DNA of 64,000 nucleotides from NCBI RefSeq assembly GCF_029625215.1, contig NZ_CP121197.1, forward strand, positions 186,001 through 250,000, in the 5' to 3' direction. The notes under the pieces are model-generated. The model was given only the letters and a program-made list of their open reading frames with translations, ran no database searches and was not told where the DNA came from. The translations under genes and the position numbers were made by a program. Of this stretch, positions 37,548 through 44,412 are shown one piece after another. The DNA comes from Aurantibacillus circumpalustris (GTDB lineage: Bacteria; Bacteroidota; Bacteroidia; B-17B0; Aurantibacillaceae). Each line of letters starts with the position of its first letter. Within the stretch, counting starts at the first letter, position 1.

Positions 37548-40500
37548 TTGATGATGATAGAAACAAAACCTTACCAAACTAAACATAAAATTCGTATAGT
37601 AACCGCTGCTGCTTTATTTGATGGGCATGATGCGGCAATAAATATTATGCGCCGCGTAATGCAAAGTACAGGTGCTGAAATTATACATTTAGGTCACGAT
37701 CGCAGCGTACAAGAAATTGTTGATTGCGCTATTCAGGAAGATGCCAATGCTATTGCCATTACAAGTTATCAAGGTGGACACAATGAGTATTTTAAATACA
37801 TGTACGATCTTTTAAAAGAAAGGGGTTGTAGTCATATTAAAATCTTCGGTGGTGGTGGTGGAACCATTTTACCTTCAGAAATAGAAGAACTTCATAATTA
37901 TGGAATCACACGCATTTATCATCCTGATGATGGACGTTCTCTTGGGCTTCAAGGCATGATAAACGATGTTCTAAAACAAAGTGATTATGCAACAGGAACT
38001 AACCTTAACGGCGAGGTAAAACATTTAAAGTCTAGTGATCATAAATCAATAGCAAAATTAATTTCGGCAGCAGAAAATTTTAATGAAGAAAGTAAAGCGG
38101 TTTTAGATCCTATTCGTAAAGAAGCAAAAACTTCTACAACTCCTGTTATTGGTATCACAGGTACTGGAGGTGCGGGAAAATCTTCGTTAGTCGATGAGTT
38201 AGTTCGTCGTTTCTTGTTAGATTTTCCTGATAAAAAAATCGGAATCGTTTCCGTTGATCCAAGTAAACGTAAAACTGGCGGCGCACTTTTAGGCGATAGA
38301 ATTCGCATGAATTCAATAAAGAACCAACGTGTTTACATGCGCTCCTTAGCAACTCGTCAGAGTAATTTGGCCTTGTCTAAATACGTTCAGGATGCTATTG
38401 ATATTCTTAAGGTTTCTGGTTTTGATTTAGTAATTATCGAAACAGCTGGTATTGGTCAAAGTGATACAGAAATTATTGAACACAGTAATATGAGTCTGTA
38501 TATCATGACTCCAGAGTTTGGCGCCGCATCTCAGTTAGAAAAAATTGACATGCTTGAATTTGCCGACATTGTTGCCATAAACAAATTTGATAAACGTGGT
38601 GCGCTTGATGCCTTGCGTGATGTAAAAAAACAATACAAACGCAATCATAATTTGTGGGAAGCAAAAGACGAAGAGCTACCAGTATATGGTACCATTGCAT
38701 CTCAGTTCAACGACCCGGGAACCAACACGCTTTACAAAGCTTTAATGGATAAACTGGTTGAAAAAACTGGTGCGAAATTAAAATCCACTTTTAAAGTAAC
38801 GGATGAAATGAGCGAGAAGATTTACATTATTCCGCCGAACCGTACGCGCTATTTAAGTGAAATTTCAGAAGCGTCACGCACCTACGATAAATGGGTAAAC
38901 GATCAAGCTACAATCGCTATTCAAATTCAGAGTATTCGTAATACGATTGATACACTTAAAACTTCTAAAATGGAAGATAAGGATCGTGTCATTAAAAGTT
39001 TAGAAGAGCAATCAGAAATTATTCGTTTGGATTTGGATCCACGCAATTTAAAAACACTAGAAACCTTTGACGAAAAGAAAAAACTTTACATCGATGAGTA
39101 TTACATTTTTAAAGTTCGTAACAAAGAAATAAAAATTAAAACCCATTATGAGAGTTTATCACATTCTCAAATACCAAAAGTCTCTGTACCAAAATATTCT
39201 GGCTGGGGAGATATTTTAAAATGGAGTTTGCGCGAAAATTTTCCAGGAGAATTTCCATACACCTCAGGAATTTATCCTTTCAAGCGTGAAGGAGAAGATC
39301 CTACACGTATGTTTGCTGGTGAAGGTGGACCCGAAAGAACCAACAAACGTTTTCATTATGTAAGTAAAGGTTTGCCTGCCGCACGTCTCAGCACAGCGTT
39401 TGACAGTGTAACGCTTTACGGAAACGATCCCGATCACCGTCCAGATATTTATGGTAAAGTTGGAAATAGCGGCGTAAGCGTTTGTTGTTTAGATGATGCC
39501 AAAAAATTATATAGCGGTTTTAATTTAGCAGATCCAAAAACATCCGTATCCATGACCATTAATGGTCCAGCTGCCACCATTGCTGCTTTCTTTATGAACG
39601 CCGCCATTGATCAGCAGTGTGAGCTTTACATCAAAGAAAATAAACTCGAAAAAGAAATCGAAAAAAAGATTGCCGATATCTATAAAGCTAAAGGAACAAA
39701 GCGTCCTAAATATAATTTGGATGAATTACCGGAAGGCAATAACGGTCTAGGCTTAATGTTGTTGGGTGTTACTGGTGATATGGTTTTACCGAAAGATGTT
39801 TACGAAAAAATTAAAGTTCATACCTTATCACAAGTGCGTGGAACGGTGCAGGCTGACATCTTAAAAGAAGATCAAGCGCAAAATACTTGCATTTTTAGTA
39901 CTGAATTTAGTTTACGCGTAATGGGTGACGTGCAGCAATACTTTATCGATAACAACGTTCGTAATTTCTACTCTGTTTCCATAAGCGGTTATCATATTGC
40001 GGAAGCAGGTGCTAATCCTATTTCGCAGCTCGCCTTTACACTATCAAATGGATTTACATTTGTAGAATATTACTTAAGTCGTGGCATGAACATCAATGAC
40101 TTTGCTCCAAACTTATCTTTCTTTTTCAGTAATGGAATTGATCCAGAGTACAGTGTGATTGGTCGTGTATCGCGTCGGATCTGGGCTAAAGCCATGAAAC
40201 AAAAATACGGTGCTAACGATAGAAGTCAAATGTTGAAATACCATATTCAAACTTCAGGGCGGTCGTTACACGCTCAGGAAATTGATTTTAACGATATTCG
40301 TACAACACTTCAAGCCTTGTATGCGATCTACGACAACTGTAATTCTTTACACACAAACGCTTACGACGAGGCTATTACAACACCAACAGAAGAATCGGTT
40401 CGTCGTGCAATGGCTATTCAATTAATTATTAACCGCGAGTTAGGTTTAGCTAAAAACGAAAATCCTTTGCAAGGAGCGTTTATTATTGAAGAATTAACCG

Positions 40501-40937
40501 ACTTAGTGGAAGAAGCTGTGTTAAGCGAATTTGACCGCATCACAGAACGTGGTGGCGTGTTGGGCGCAATGGAAACTATGTACCAACGCAGCAAAATACA
40601 AGAAGAAAGCTTGTACTACGAAACATTAAAACACAACGGAGAGTATCCTTTAATTGGTGTGAACACATTCTTAAATTCTAAAGGTAGTCCAACTGTATTA
40701 CCGCGTGAAGTCATTCGTTCTACAACCGAAGAAAAAGAAGATCAGATTAATACACGAAACAGTTTATGGGAAACCAATAAAGATAAAAGTGCTGCTATTC
40801 TAAAAACGCTTCAACACAAAGCCATTCAAAATGAAAATTTATTTGAAGGTTTGATGGAAGCTGTGAAGTATTGTTCTTTAGGGCAAATCACCAACGCGCT
40901 TTTTGAAGTCGGAGGACAGTACAGAAGGAACATGTAA
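37548..40937 (+). CDS. icmF: Fused isobutyryl-CoA mutase IcmF (B12 domain, G-protein chaperone, mutase)
   Basis: A 1129-residue single-chain mutase. Order: adenosylcobalamin-binding domain (about 13-150, [19 protein letters not shown], with the cobalt-ligand His in DGHD); MeaI-like GTPase (P-loop G205-S212, TGTGGAGKS); then the TIM-barrel substrate domain (about 560-1129). Two residues set substrate class: Phe589 in TRMFAGEGG and Gln778 in DQAQNTCIF. Methylmalonyl-CoA mutase has Tyr and Arg there, so this is the isobutyryl/butyryl-CoA type. It isomerises isobutyryl-CoA and n-butyryl-CoA, linking valine breakdown to fatty acid metabolism. The C-terminus is [11 protein letters not shown] strong terminator follows. 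Confidence 0.93.
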
Positions 40938-40956
40938 AGTCAAAAGTCTAAAATAT

Positions 40957-40983
40957 AAACCCTGCTATTTAGCAGGGTTTTTT
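40957..40983 (+). terminator. Terminator of icmF
   Basis: AAACCCTGCT pairs perfectly with AGCAGGGTTT around ATTT, followed by a T-run. It overlaps an in-frame TTG at 40982 that could otherwise be read as the start of the next gene, so that gene starts at the ATG at 40997. Confidence 0.9.
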
Positions 40984-40996
40984 GTTATATTTAATT

Positions 40997-42892
40997 ATGA
41001 TTAAAGCAATAAATATTTCAGAAGATGTCTTTAGTAGTTATAACTACAATCCAGAAAAAGAACTCGACAATCTTTCCAAGGTAAATATCTTTATTGGGCC
41101 AAATAATTCTGGTAAAAGTAGGTTTTTGCGGCATTTATTCGCACTAGAAAACCTAAAATTTACGTCAGACAACTATGACCTTAAGACCATTTCTTTAAAA
41201 CTAAAACTCTTTAAAGAGAAAATTCTCATGGAAGTAGAAAACAATGGCGCGCTTCCAGATGCATTTTCCAAAAAATATTTAGACAATTTAGAAATTCCCG
41301 AGCTCTCAAATTTTGAAATTAAAGTTAACCTTGATAAATTAATAACTTTTCTTAATGATATCCTAAAAATTAAACAAGAAAATTTTCAATTGAGTTTTCG
41401 AGTACATGCACCAAATACTAATTACTTGTTAAAGTTTTTTATTGAGAAGACCGGCGAACTACTATTGGATATTGAAAAAATAATAGGCACTAATGAAGGA
41501 GAATTCTACGAAAGGGCTTACATTCCAATATTAAGAGGCCTAAGGCCGATTCAGTTAGACCAAACCGGAAAGAATTTGTATAAGGCTGAGGGTACTGATA
41601 ACTACCTTATTAGGACAGTGGAAGATTATTTTTCAGATAAAACCGTTAACGGAAAAGTTAACATCAATGTTTATAGCGGTCTCAATATTTACAGTGACAT
41701 AAAATCACAATTACTTAATAGCAGAGAACAGCGGGAAAACATCAAACAGTTCGAGAATTTCTTGCAGAAAAATTTTTTTGAAAACCGAACGGTAACATTA
41801 ATACCTCAAAAAGGAAAAGACGTTCTGCTTGTAGGGATTGGAGAAACTGAAAAACTAATCCACGAATTAGGAGACGGTATCCAAGCTTTGATTTTATTAC
41901 TTTATCCAATATTTATAAACCGTGGCCGGAAATTTATGTTTTTTATAGAAGAGCCTGAGCTATTTATGCATCCTGGTATGCAAAGGGTCTTTTTGGAGAC
42001 ACTGCTTAGCGATGAATTTAAAGATATGCAATTCTTCCTAACAACACACTCACATCATTTTTTGGATTTAACTTTCGACAATAAAAACATTTCAATTTAT
42101 AGCTTTGCATTTAAAGATGATAAATTTAAAATTAAAAATCTCTTAAGTCCTGCACATTTTATTTTATCTGAACTAGGAATAAGAAACTCATCTTTATTTC
42201 TTTCGAATTGTACCATTTGGGTTGAGGGGGTAACGGATCGAAAATACATTAGGAAATTTTTGGAAATGTACAGCAATAATAACTCAAATTACAAAAGGTT
42301 TTTAGAGGATTTACACTATTCTTTCATCGAGTATGCAGGAAGCAATATTACCCACTGGAACTTTGAGGAAGAAAGTGATGATGAAAAAATTGGTGCTTTA
42401 AAAATTAACCATAATATCTTTTTAATAGTTGACAGTGATGTTCTTTCTAATGGACAAAAGCCTACTGTAAAGGAATTAAGGCATGAAAATTTAAAAAAAG
42501 CACTTGGTGATAAATTATATATTACCGAAGGCAAAGAAATAGAAAATATGCTTTCCTTTGATACAATTAAAAATGTAGTTGCTTATTATGAAAAGAAAAA
42601 TACTCGTGATCTAAAATTTAAAAAAGGATTTGTTGGAAAATCAAAAGTAATAAGCCAAAATAGCGGTTTGGAAATTGAAAAACCTATTTATTGGAATAAA
42701 AACATTGGCGAACTAATTGACAAAACTTTGGATGGTCGCACGAGAGACTACAAGGATGGAAATACAATCATGGGAAAAGATACTTTTTGCCACAAGGCAA
42801 TAGAATCTATTAAAAAATATGAAGATCTGTCTGAAGAGGCAAAAGATTTAAGTAGAAGAATCTTTGAATTTATTGCAAACTGCAACAAATAA
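40997..42892 (+). CDS. OLD-like AAA ATPase with C-terminal TOPRIM nuclease domain
   Basis: About 631 residues. N-terminal SMC/ABC-type ATPase: Walker A in IFIGPNNSGKSRFLRHL (about 31-47), signature-like LIHELGDGIQALILLLYP, Walker B in KFMFFIEEPELFMHPG with the His-loop FLTTHSHHFLDL. From about 405 a TOPRIM-type region begins: IWVEGVTDRKYIRKFLEMY (Glu), then LIVDSDVLSN (Asp-x-Asp) and GKEIENMLS. This architecture matches overcoming-lysogenisation-defect nucleases and related defence ATPases (GajA, fused AriA-AriB). No GajB helicase or other known partner follows, so a stand-alone (class 1) OLD protein is the simplest reading. It lies between icmF and a duplicated icmF tail, so it was probably acquired. 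Confidence 0.8.
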   Translation: MIKAINISEDVFSSYNYNPEKELDNLSKVNIFIGPNNSGKSRFLRHLFALENLKFTSDNYDLKTISLKLKLFKEKILMEVENNGALPDAFSKKYLDNLEIPELSNFEIKVNLDKLITFLNDILKIKQENFQLSFRVHAPNTNYLLKFFIEKTGELLLDIEKIIGTNEGEFYERAYIPILRGLRPIQLDQTGKNLYKAEGTDNYLIRTVEDYFSDKTVNGKVNINVYSGLNIYSDIKSQLLNSREQRENIKQFENFLQKNFFENRTVTLIPQKGKDVLLVGIGETEKLIHELGDGIQALILLLYPIFINRGRKFMFFIEEPELFMHPGMQRVFLETLLSDEFKDMQFFLTTHSHHFLDLTFDNKNISIYSFAFKDDKFKIKNLLSPAHFILSELGIRNSSLFLSNCTIWVEGVTDRKYIRKFLEMYSNNNSNYKRFLEDLHYSFIEYAGSNITHWNFEEESDDEKIGALKINHNIFLIVDSDVLSNGQKPTVKELRHENLKKALGDKLYITEGKEIENMLSFDTIKNVVAYYEKKNTRDLKFKKGFVGKSKVISQNSGLEIEKPIYWNKNIGELIDKTLDGRTRDYKDGNTIMGKDTFCHKAIESIKKYEDLSEEAKDLSRRIFEFIANCNK

Positions 42893-42962
42893 GTAACTCA
42901 GATTCTTTTAGCGATATTCGTAGACAGTTTCAGTTTATCCGATATGTATTCATTTTTAGTAT

Positions 42963-43015
42963 AAATCACCAACGCGCGTTTTGAAGTGGGAGGACAATAC
43001 CGCCAGAATATGTAA
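42963..43015 (+). pseudogene. Degenerate duplicate of the icmF 3' end
   Basis: These 53 bp match icmF 40885-40937, up to and including its stop, at 45 of 53 positions. In frame it reads [16 protein letters not shown]-stop against [16 protein letters not shown]-stop in the intact gene. Most of the differing codons are synonymous (GTC/GTG, CAG/CAA, AGA/CGC, AAC/AAT), so the copy evolved under selection in a related icmF before it arrived here, rather than decaying from the local gene. An in-frame TAA sits directly before it. It marks one edge of an inserted segment carrying the OLD-like gene. Confidence 0.8.
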
Positions 43016-43100
43016 AAGTAGTGTCCGTAGATACTGCGCTTATCGAAGTATGGTGGGCAATCCAGTAGGAACCCGTATTTTTTCCACATCATTTTCTCTT

Positions 43101-43178: not shown

Positions 43179-43274
43179 CTGTCAACGTAATGACAATTTT
43201 TATATAAATTTTGTCAATACAATGACAATTTTTACACTAATTTAGTCAATACAATGACAAAATTTGTATATTTG
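43179..43274. repeat. Three 32-bp direct repeats, each with an 18-bp palindrome
   Basis: Units start at 43179, 43211 and 43243, exactly 32 bp apart (about three helical turns). Each opens with an inverted repeat; the central copy is TTGTCAATACAATGACAA (arms of 6, spacer of 6), and the others differ at one to four positions. The rest of each unit is an AT-rich spacer. The array ends four bases before the ATG at 43279. The shape suggests a cooperative operator for the downstream ATPase gene, or a recognition site for it. Too few and too short to be a CRISPR array. Confidence 0.85.
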
Positions 43275-43278
43275 AGGT

Positions 43279-44412
43279 ATGGAAATTCAAAGGGTTCAAT
43301 TAAACGAATTGCTTAAGAACCTAAAACCACAAAAAGTTACATTACTTCTAGGCGCGCGTAGGGTAGGAAAATCTATTCTCATAGAAACTTTATTACAAGA
43401 TTATAAACGTCCATACCTATACCTCAATGGAGAAGATGAAGACACACATCTATTACTTGCTCAAAGAACAGTAAGTAATTATACACGTGTTTTAAATGGC
43501 AACGACCTGCTAGTAATTGATGAAGCGCAAGGTATACCCGAAATTGGAAAAAAACTCAAACTAATGGTTGATTCCATTAAAGGTCTAAAAGTATTAGTTA
43601 CCGGTTCTTCTTCTTTTGATATTCTAAATATTTCCGGAGAACCTCTTACCGGAAGAAGCATTACCATTAACCTCTACCCTATTTGGCAAGGAGAATTAAA
43701 GGAAAATGCTTTGCAAATAAAACAAAACCTTGAAGACCGTCTTATATACGGCTCTTATCCTGAACTATGGCACTTAAAAACTAAGGATGAGAAACAACAT
43801 TACTTGAACGATCTTGCAAATTCATACCTCTTAAAAGATATCTTAATTCTCGACGGACTCAGAAATGCTTCTGTAGTTTTTAGTTTGCTGAAAATGATTG
43901 CTTATCAAATTGGAAAAGAAGTTTCATACAACGAACTAGGAAATTCACTTGGCATTAGTAAAAACACCGTGGAAAAATATTTAAACTTACTTACAAAAGT
44001 ATTTGTGTTATATAAAGTTTCCGCTTACAGTAATAATCTTCGAAAAGAAATTTCGAAAAGCCAACGCTGGTATTTTATCGATAACGGCATACGTAACGCG
44101 GTAGTAGGAGACTTCCAACCTCTAGCATTAAGGCGTGAAGACGACAAAGGCATGCTTTGGGAAAATTATTTATTCATGGAAAGATTGAAACGTAACACGT
44201 ATAAAAAAAGCAATCCCGATTATTATTTTTGGCGAACTTACGATCAACAAGAAATAGATTTACTCGAAGTAAAAACAAAAAAAATACAAGCCTTTGAATT
44301 TAAATATAGCTCAAAGAAAACACCAAAAGTGCCAATAGCCTTTGCAAAAGCATACCCTACTGCCACATTCCAAGTTGTGAACGATAAAAGCTATCTTGAT
44401 TTTATTTTATAA
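43279..44412 (+). CDS. AAA_14/DUF4143 ATP-binding protein
   Basis: A 377-residue protein. AAA_14 ATPase: Walker A LLLGARRVGKSILIETLL (about 22-39), Walker B NDLLVIDEAQGIPEIG (about 74-89), sensor region VLVTGSSSFDI (about 105-115). A winged-helix segment follows (ISKNTVEKYLNLLTKVFVLYKV, about 229-250). The DUF4143 C-terminal domain has the PD-(D/E)XK-like pattern QEIDLLEVKTKKIQAFEFKYS (about 329-349), with the Asp and Glu-x-Lys present. Members are widespread, often in accessory regions, and mostly uncharacterised; nuclease activity is possible but unproven. It sits 4 bp behind the palindromic repeat array. Confidence 0.85.
   Translation: MEIQRVQLNELLKNLKPQKVTLLLGARRVGKSILIETLLQDYKRPYLYLNGEDEDTHLLLAQRTVSNYTRVLNGNDLLVIDEAQGIPEIGKKLKLMVDSIKGLKVLVTGSSSFDILNISGEPLTGRSITINLYPIWQGELKENALQIKQNLEDRLIYGSYPELWHLKTKDEKQHYLNDLANSYLLKDILILDGLRNASVVFSLLKMIAYQIGKEVSYNELGNSLGISKNTVEKYLNLLTKVFVLYKVSAYSNNLRKEISKSQRWYFIDNGIRNAVVGDFQPLALRREDDKGMLWENYLFMERLKRNTYKKSNPDYYFWRTYDQQEIDLLEVKTKKIQAFEFKYSSKKTPKVPIAFAKAYPTATFQVVNDKSYLDFIL

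Follow-up and report, generated by a model that had tools for sequence, protein, structure and literature searches.

The means by which small defence genes and toxin-antitoxin genes spread without the help of recombinases are poorly understood. Some elements use the 3' end of a gene as attachment site, as e14 does in icd, and a restored gene end accompanied by a displaced end that differs from it synonymously is the signature of integrase islands. Insertion with long target duplication, reported for restriction-modification genes, places small defence genes between long direct repeats of the host's own sequence. A further route is represented by the T6SS effector genes of Vibrio cholerae, which form displacement arrays. 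As described by Kirchberger et al. (2017, PMC5361080), successive imports share a conserved upstream region as their anchor and drive older 3' ends, with the genes behind them, further back; the proposed mechanism is akin to homology-facilitated illegitimate recombination, and orphan 3' regions of Rhs genes are cited beside this displacement. Homology-facilitated illegitimate recombination itself is characterized by one homologous anchor, one non-homologous joint and a gain of DNA, and is described in PMC2884548 and PMC3240628 from experiments and within-species comparisons.

Here we describe displaced 3' ends of icmF, the gene of a fused isobutyryl-CoA mutase/GTPase, first in one genome and then across Bacteroidota. 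The locus resembles the T6SS arrays in that older 3' ends and downstream genes lie pushed back behind a conserved anchor. In the T6SS case, however, the displaced gene is a variable effector and its immunity genes are what is retained, whereas icmF is metabolic, conserved and still encodes an intact product, and the cargo behind it, found in several genera, is unrelated and of defence, toxin-antitoxin or efflux type. Compared to the described cases of homology-facilitated illegitimate recombination, icmF represents a repeated site at one housekeeping gene. Small cargo between long direct repeats is shared with long target duplication, but the icmF repeats differ mainly at synonymous sites and are thus mostly not copies of one target. 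While the displacement array is a known kind of locus from T6SS and Rhs genes, the housekeeping anchor and the cargo look new; among the titles and abstract openings searched, with subscription journals mostly outside the scope, none treated icmF as an insertion site.

Results

The window analysed here is a 64,000-nt stretch of the genome of Aurantibacillus circumpalustris (G000; G labels denote genomes, L labels denote loci outside the genus set). Its features around the icmF 3' end are summarized in Table 1. The domain matches agree with the gene identities given in a preliminary description of the window, namely icmF, carbonic anhydrase (Pro_CA) and an AAA_15/AAA_21 ATPase, and the only gene between the icmF end and its displaced copy (relic) is, as claimed there, an OLD-type ATPase/Toprim gene. 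The second icmF tail (around 43033-43072) and the AAA_14/DUF4143 gene were both absent from that description. By eye, none of the 33 other genus loci carries a hairpin with T run behind icmF (200-nt listings, 34 loci). The three GTCA-N6-TGAC boxes keep their 32-nt spacing exactly and look like an operator array. Two to three such boxes precede the AAA_14/DUF4143 gene in 8 of 8 genus genomes that have this gene behind icmF, and the number of boxes in front of these genes equals all 22 boxes found across 398 kb of icmF-downstream DNA.

Table 1. Features at the 3' side of icmF in the window (positions within the window).
Feature	Position	Strand	Evidence or remark
icmF, fused isobutyryl-CoA mutase/GTPase, anchor gene	37548..40937	+	NCBIfam IsobCoAmut_IcmF, 1770 bits; Pfam MM_CoA_mutase, MeaB, B12-binding
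Present 3' end (tail) of icmF	40885..40937	+	direct repeat D1; 6/53 differences to tree sister G001
Terminator-like hairpin and T run, directly 3' of icmF	40957..40986	+	fold z -3.9
OLD-type ABC-ATPase/Toprim gene, 631 aa, stand-alone cargo	40997..42892	+	AAA_15 (E 1e-17), AAA_21
Right spacer, OLD stop to relic	42893..42962	+	no stable fold (z 0.66)
Displaced icmF tail 1 (relic)	42963..43015	+	direct repeat, profile score, codon comparison
Spacer motif GATACTG..CTT.T.GAAGTATGG	43030..43053	+	within the genus common only to the icmF 3' flank of G031
icmF tail 2, older and more decayed, overlapping the spacer motif	43033..43072	+	profile 27.9 versus reverse-strand maximum 23.4
Three GTCA-N6-TGAC boxes, 32-nt spacing, 5' of the AAA_14/DUF4143 gene	43181..43258	+	
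AAA_14/DUF4143 ATPase gene (PADLOC PDC-S01), marks the empty site	43279..44412	+	domain and PADLOC matches

The OLD protein contains GPNNSGKS (residues 34-41), EEPE (318-321) and H351, which we take to be the Walker A motif, the acidic pair of Walker B and the H-loop, respectively. In the alignment the Walker A residues, E319 and H351 are invariant, and the Toprim residues E410, G411, D414, D479 and D481 are so in 11 of 11 aligned sequences. In a predicted model (mean pLDDT 74), residues 1-397 are nearest to PtuA/AriA structures (Z ~15), followed by SMC heads (Z 14); most structure matches span these residues and barely cover the C-terminal Toprim half. PADLOC lists AriA, GajA and Old among 55 weak matches. 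The gene stands alone between icmF and the AAA_14/DUF4143 gene, without an adjacent helicase or retron reverse transcriptase, and by eye no constant partner gene accompanies it across 10 relatives. Class 1 OLD nucleases, as reviewed in PMC10568477, are likewise single genes with an N-terminal ABC ATPase and C-terminal Toprim residues. In its layout and motifs the OLD gene of the window fits this class, and a role against phages may be presumed; the best sequence match of its product to a solved structure, OLD-family entry 6p74, covers no more than 71 residues.

A match to the OLD protein occurs in 12 of 395 class-sample genomes including G000 (whole-genome search, best identity 42%), and peptide patterns retrieved no relatives from genome_contigs and viral_contigs. 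Relatives on plasmids and phages are distant, the best being a Vibrio phage record with 33% identity over 96% of the protein; this relative adjoins a gene noted as DUF3427. Another relative, at L326:119-3912 (34% identity), has genes that look nucleotidyltransferase-like by eye on both sides. Alien codon use, which was to be compared between 40997-42892 and the flanks as a sign of import, is not clear: the gene has a value of 0.185, within the range of 0.06-0.264 of 12 nearby genes that themselves mostly form the reference, and its GC content is 0.309 compared to 0.355 for the window.

To evaluate the insertion itself we compared the locus with its relatives. The OLD match is found in 1 of 40 genus genomes and in 1 of 87 family genomes, G000 alone. 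An AAA_14/DUF4143 gene lies at most 1.6 kb behind icmF in seven other genus members, directly behind it in four, and in the empty sites of G001, G014, G038 and G039 it follows icmF after 141-215 nt with no gene in between. In a tree of the icmF 3' part, from which the tail was left out, G001 is sister to G000 (support 99/97). Contrary to the tree, the raw distance to G000 over the last 2 kb of icmF is smaller for G009 (0.156) than for G001 (0.178), and G009 likewise lacks the OLD gene. The layout of the four genomes, the position of G001 in the tree and the absence of the gene from G009 thus show that the empty site is real. Together with the sporadic occurrence of the OLD gene this shows, as the preliminary description had proposed, that the OLD-bearing segment was inserted behind icmF; relatives sharing OLD gene and relic with no empty site, which would have spoken against it, are the opposite of what is seen in these four genus members.

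Over its 53-nt core the relic shares, as first described, 45 bases with the 3' end of icmF, and direct repeat D1 (40868-40938 versus 42946-43016) reaches 80% over 71 nt. The 17 nt in front of the core are AT-rich and match weakly; they may represent more decayed homology. With a leave-one-out profile of icmF tails the relic scores 61.2 against a reverse-strand maximum of 23.4 over 34 genomes, and the match is therefore not due to chance. The relic comprises 16 codons and the stop. Six of these 17 codons differ, four synonymously and two not (L>R, R>Q), so that the claim of mostly synonymous changes holds for the core; with the preceding 17 nt the ratio is 4:6.

Among 244 icmF tails the relic is nearest to its own icmF (45/53, next best 43), a result which had been named as arguing against a foreign donor. 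This affinity is, however, confined to the first 33 nt, which are own-like at 31 of 33 positions (two differences), whereas the last 20 nt agree at 14 of 20 (six differences) and are matched at 18 of 20 by some other icmF genes. Such a mosaic, built on eight sites, could stem from a crossover inside the tail. Allowing one mismatch, the spacer motif occurs once in G000, once in G031 and in none of the 38 other genus genomes, and relic plus spacer match the icmF end and flank of G031 with an E value of 2e-13. A dispersed REP element as source of the repeat was rejected, since in the genus the spacer motif is seen nowhere but at icmF. Shorter core motifs resembling CTGAGCTTGTCGAAG and REP-family-like in appearance are, however, scattered through 31 of 40 genus genomes (1-47 copies, almost none in the reversed control).

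We then surveyed 248 icmF loci (245 distinct), comprising the genus (34 of 37 with icmF), named loci (79 of 80), other genera of the family (37) and the class (98 of 100 fetched); the named relatives found belong nearly all to Bacteroidota. The tail profile was run over the first 4 kb downstream in the genus and 6 kb in the other sets, 12 of the 248 loci having less than 1500 nt downstream. Displaced tails were detected in 12 of 248 loci from at least four genera: 5 of 34 in the genus (G000, G006, G008, G031 and G033), 2 of 79 among the named loci (L130, L150), 0 of 37 in other genera of the family and 5 of 98 in the class (L242, L243, L250 and L255 by profile, L212 by long alignment rather than by profile). 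G008 is marginal (24.1 versus 23.4) and was kept. The bearers belong to search genera g1, g18, g52 and g92, to Hymenobacter (L150, perhaps one of these) and to an unplaced MAG (L130). More than one tail is present in G000, G006, L130, L150, L212 and L243. The tails lie on the icmF strand, the reverse strand serving as control, and end at or near the stop; a 400-nt alignment up to 12 kb downstream revealed no further clear tail. Dropped were L208 (26.9, internal 22 nt), L284 (28.2, internal 15 nt), G009 (27 versus a reverse maximum of 23 in the 400-nt alignment, internal), L165 (no gene end), L213 (icmF split in two ORFs) and L214 (partial).

The cargo differs from locus to locus, where the labels 'toxin-antitoxin' and 'defence' follow family names. 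In G000 it consists of the terminator and the stand-alone OLD gene. In L130 three units, namely a 123-aa gene, a DUF2281-PIN pair and a 125-aa gene, are each followed by a tail, and L243 has a DUF2281-PIN pair between tails, with Vsr and a C5 methylase behind the last tail. The two DUF2281-PIN pairs (L130:11692-12290 and L243:517-1154) look alike by eye, and an icmF tail lies directly in front of both. In L250 a tail is followed by an AAA_21/AAA_15 ATPase and a C5 methylase; in L255 a pair of NTase_sub_bind protein and nucleotidyltransferase precedes the tail (HepT-like just below the cut-off); and L150 (Hymenobacter terrenus) shows DUF6000, a PDDEXK_2 nuclease, a tail, a PD-(D/E)XK protein and another tail. 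In L212 a metal-efflux block, roughly 11 kb long and including an E1-E2 ATPase as well as an AcrB-type pump, is followed by an icmF 3' end that is open over 235 aa. Only short spacers are present in G006, G008, G031 and L242, and G033 has about 650 nt without a clear gene. With displaced tails in 12 of 248 loci, several of them with cargo, the earlier suggestion that the icmF 3' side is a landing site is borne out and can be extended: as a landing site for cargo in Bacteroidota, the icmF 3' end is real and fairly well-founded.

The codon differences give information on the origin of the tails. Pooled over 18 tails, the codons differing from the resident icmF are synonymous in 175 and nonsynonymous in 66 cases (73% synonymous; for G000 the 53-nt core only was counted and the second tail left out, and the rows are not independent). 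When the decay of a local copy is simulated with the protein of the gene itself held constant, 27-37% of the changes are synonymous for four icmF ends. Most tails thus diverged as working icmF ends elsewhere. The ratio is 15:2 in L250, 13:2 in L243 and 12:2 in L130; G008 has 0:1. The proposal that the relic stems from a diverged icmF and not from local decay is hence supported for most tails by the pooled count, while G000 on its own is weak (4:2). Farther from icmF the nonsynonymous share rises from 5/16 to 7/15 in L150 and, after the first tail, in L130 (2/14, 7/14, 4/10). In these two loci the order of decay suggests that the newest cassette adjoins icmF.

The stranded tail of G031 is continued by the sequence found downstream in the close relatives G002 and G013, and the last 27 nt of the present icmF show six differences to G002 (mean 2.4; 4.3% of windows are as high). 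In G031, the stranded end is native and the present icmF end imported. The same applies by layout to G008, where the deviation of the present end is not significant. The preliminary description had regarded the relic of the window as the foreign end, which is the reverse of what G031 and G008 show; in G000, with a layout like G031 and with present tail and relic differing from G001 at 6/53 and 13/53 positions, the sequence does not decide. The existence of the event in the window is accordingly more secure than its direction.

To rule out that such tails are equally common behind other genes, we used 123 instances of 10 other orthologue groups, mostly near icmF, from the same genus regions. 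One clear tail reaching the stop and one weak internal case were found; G012 was dropped (26.8, short of the stop; reverse maximum 25.3 in that run). Compared to these controls the icmF count of 5/34 gives P 0.002 (one case) or 0.006 (two cases), and 0.008 or 0.02 without G008. The control gene with the clear tail, from G014 (L055), is presumably alanine dehydrogenase-like; its insert contains a large ORF. A cruder own-tail test gave 6 of ~231 icmF loci and 9 of ~2263 other genes (P 0.0015), or P 0.003 when two L144 rows are kept, which we took to be recurring secreted-protein C-termini and left out; copies of about 200 nt or longer were counted as paralogues in this test. The nine other genes with tail-only repeats speak against specificity for icmF: tail stranding is general and concentrated at icmF. 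Another gene with a stranded tail (90 nt, about 5 kb downstream) is seen at L096:14015-14927.

Discussion

We consider it probable, at roughly 0.6, that the arrays arise when recombination takes icmF as its anchor and the far joint is made illegitimately, which pushes the former gene end downstream. Hereby, incoming DNA of another species would bring its own icmF 3' part together with whatever follows. The incoming icmF part would pair with the resident icmF as a long anchor, and the other end would join illegitimately, as we infer, at a short microhomology located up to tens or hundreds of bases before the end of the resident icmF. Thereafter the cell would have a complete icmF that ends in donor sequence, would have gained the downstream cassette of the donor and would carry the earlier 3' end, now stranded, behind this cassette. 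Further rounds of the process would yield a last-in-first array of the form icmF, newest cassette, former tail, older cassette, older tail, in which the terminator and the stand-alone OLD nuclease gene would be the newest cassette of the window. Entry could occur by natural transformation, which is reported for some Flavobacteriaceae, or by other DNA import.

The stretches matching icmF start between about 14 and about 750 nt before the stop in alignments, and at about 800 nt in L212 by protein match; break points varying over ~14-800 nt argue against a single recombinase core. Within one genus, one and the same spacer end meets icmF at either of two TTCG sites, as would be expected of joining by microhomology. 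The spacer, that of G135, G197 and G169, matches at icmF only in these genomes, bar one 26-nt match (E 0.001). A donor was found for no event, and the far-end joints thus stand without comparison to parent sequences. Against icmF-anchored joining speak the weak synonymous excess in G000, the first 33 nt of the relic being nearest to the own icmF, the lack of tails in the 37 family loci and the raw distances, by which G009 and not the tree sister G001 is nearest to G000. The raw distances and the decay order have slightly lowered the figure given above.

The main rival is a two-sided homologous exchange, by which a block of icmF, OLD gene and relic, prebuilt elsewhere, entered through two crossovers, one within icmF and the other on the AAA_14/DUF4143 side; in a sub-form the stranded tail itself is the second homology arm, and the cassette enters any icmF by homology alone. 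The mosaic of the relic would fit such an exchange, as would the DUF2281-PIN pairs between icmF tails in both L130 and L243. The mosaic consists of eight differences, however, and the first origin of the tails is left unexplained, so that we regard this route as unlikely. Site-specific integration, in which an element carries the icmF 3' end as attachment site, is inserted by a tyrosine or serine recombinase and later loses it, accounts for a restored gene end with a synonymously differing displaced end and for the order of the tails. It is nevertheless quite unlikely in view of break points that share no common core and of insert sizes of ~0.03-2 kb (bar the 11-kb block of L212), most of which are too short to hold an integrase gene; in the next longest, those of G000 and L150, the space is taken up by other ORFs. 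Moreover, no Phage_integrase match (PF00589) lies within 100 kb on the icmF contig in the 10 tail-bearing genomes searched (all of the 12 but L130 and L150), and a search of 50,697 phage records with the C-terminus of icmF gave no match. Six plasmid records match this C-terminus, at least three of them in annotated mutase genes.

Duplication of the icmF end on insertion, either as a local tandem or as a long target repeat, with later decay of the copy, would explain why the relic is nearest to its own icmF, and insertion with long target duplication is named in papers on restriction-modification genes. The pooled share of 73% synonymous differences, compared to the 27-37% expected, and G031, where the native tail is the displaced one and the present tail deviates, make this origin very unlikely.

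Each import anchored in icmF would leave a stub of the anchor gene, and the stubs would form a stratigraphic record in which order, donor distance and break point can be read; stubs of former gene ends can be searched for in any genome. Tentatively, and with the odds against it, the stranded tail and the front icmF might in addition serve as two homology arms fitting nearly every icmF of Bacteroidota, which would turn the locus into an integrase-free cassette array, an 'integron without integrase', whose cassettes spread between species by homologous recombination and add defence and toxin-antitoxin genes in last-in-first order without harming the housekeeping gene. If tail-flanked cassettes do travel by homology alone, defence hotspots would need no mobile element.
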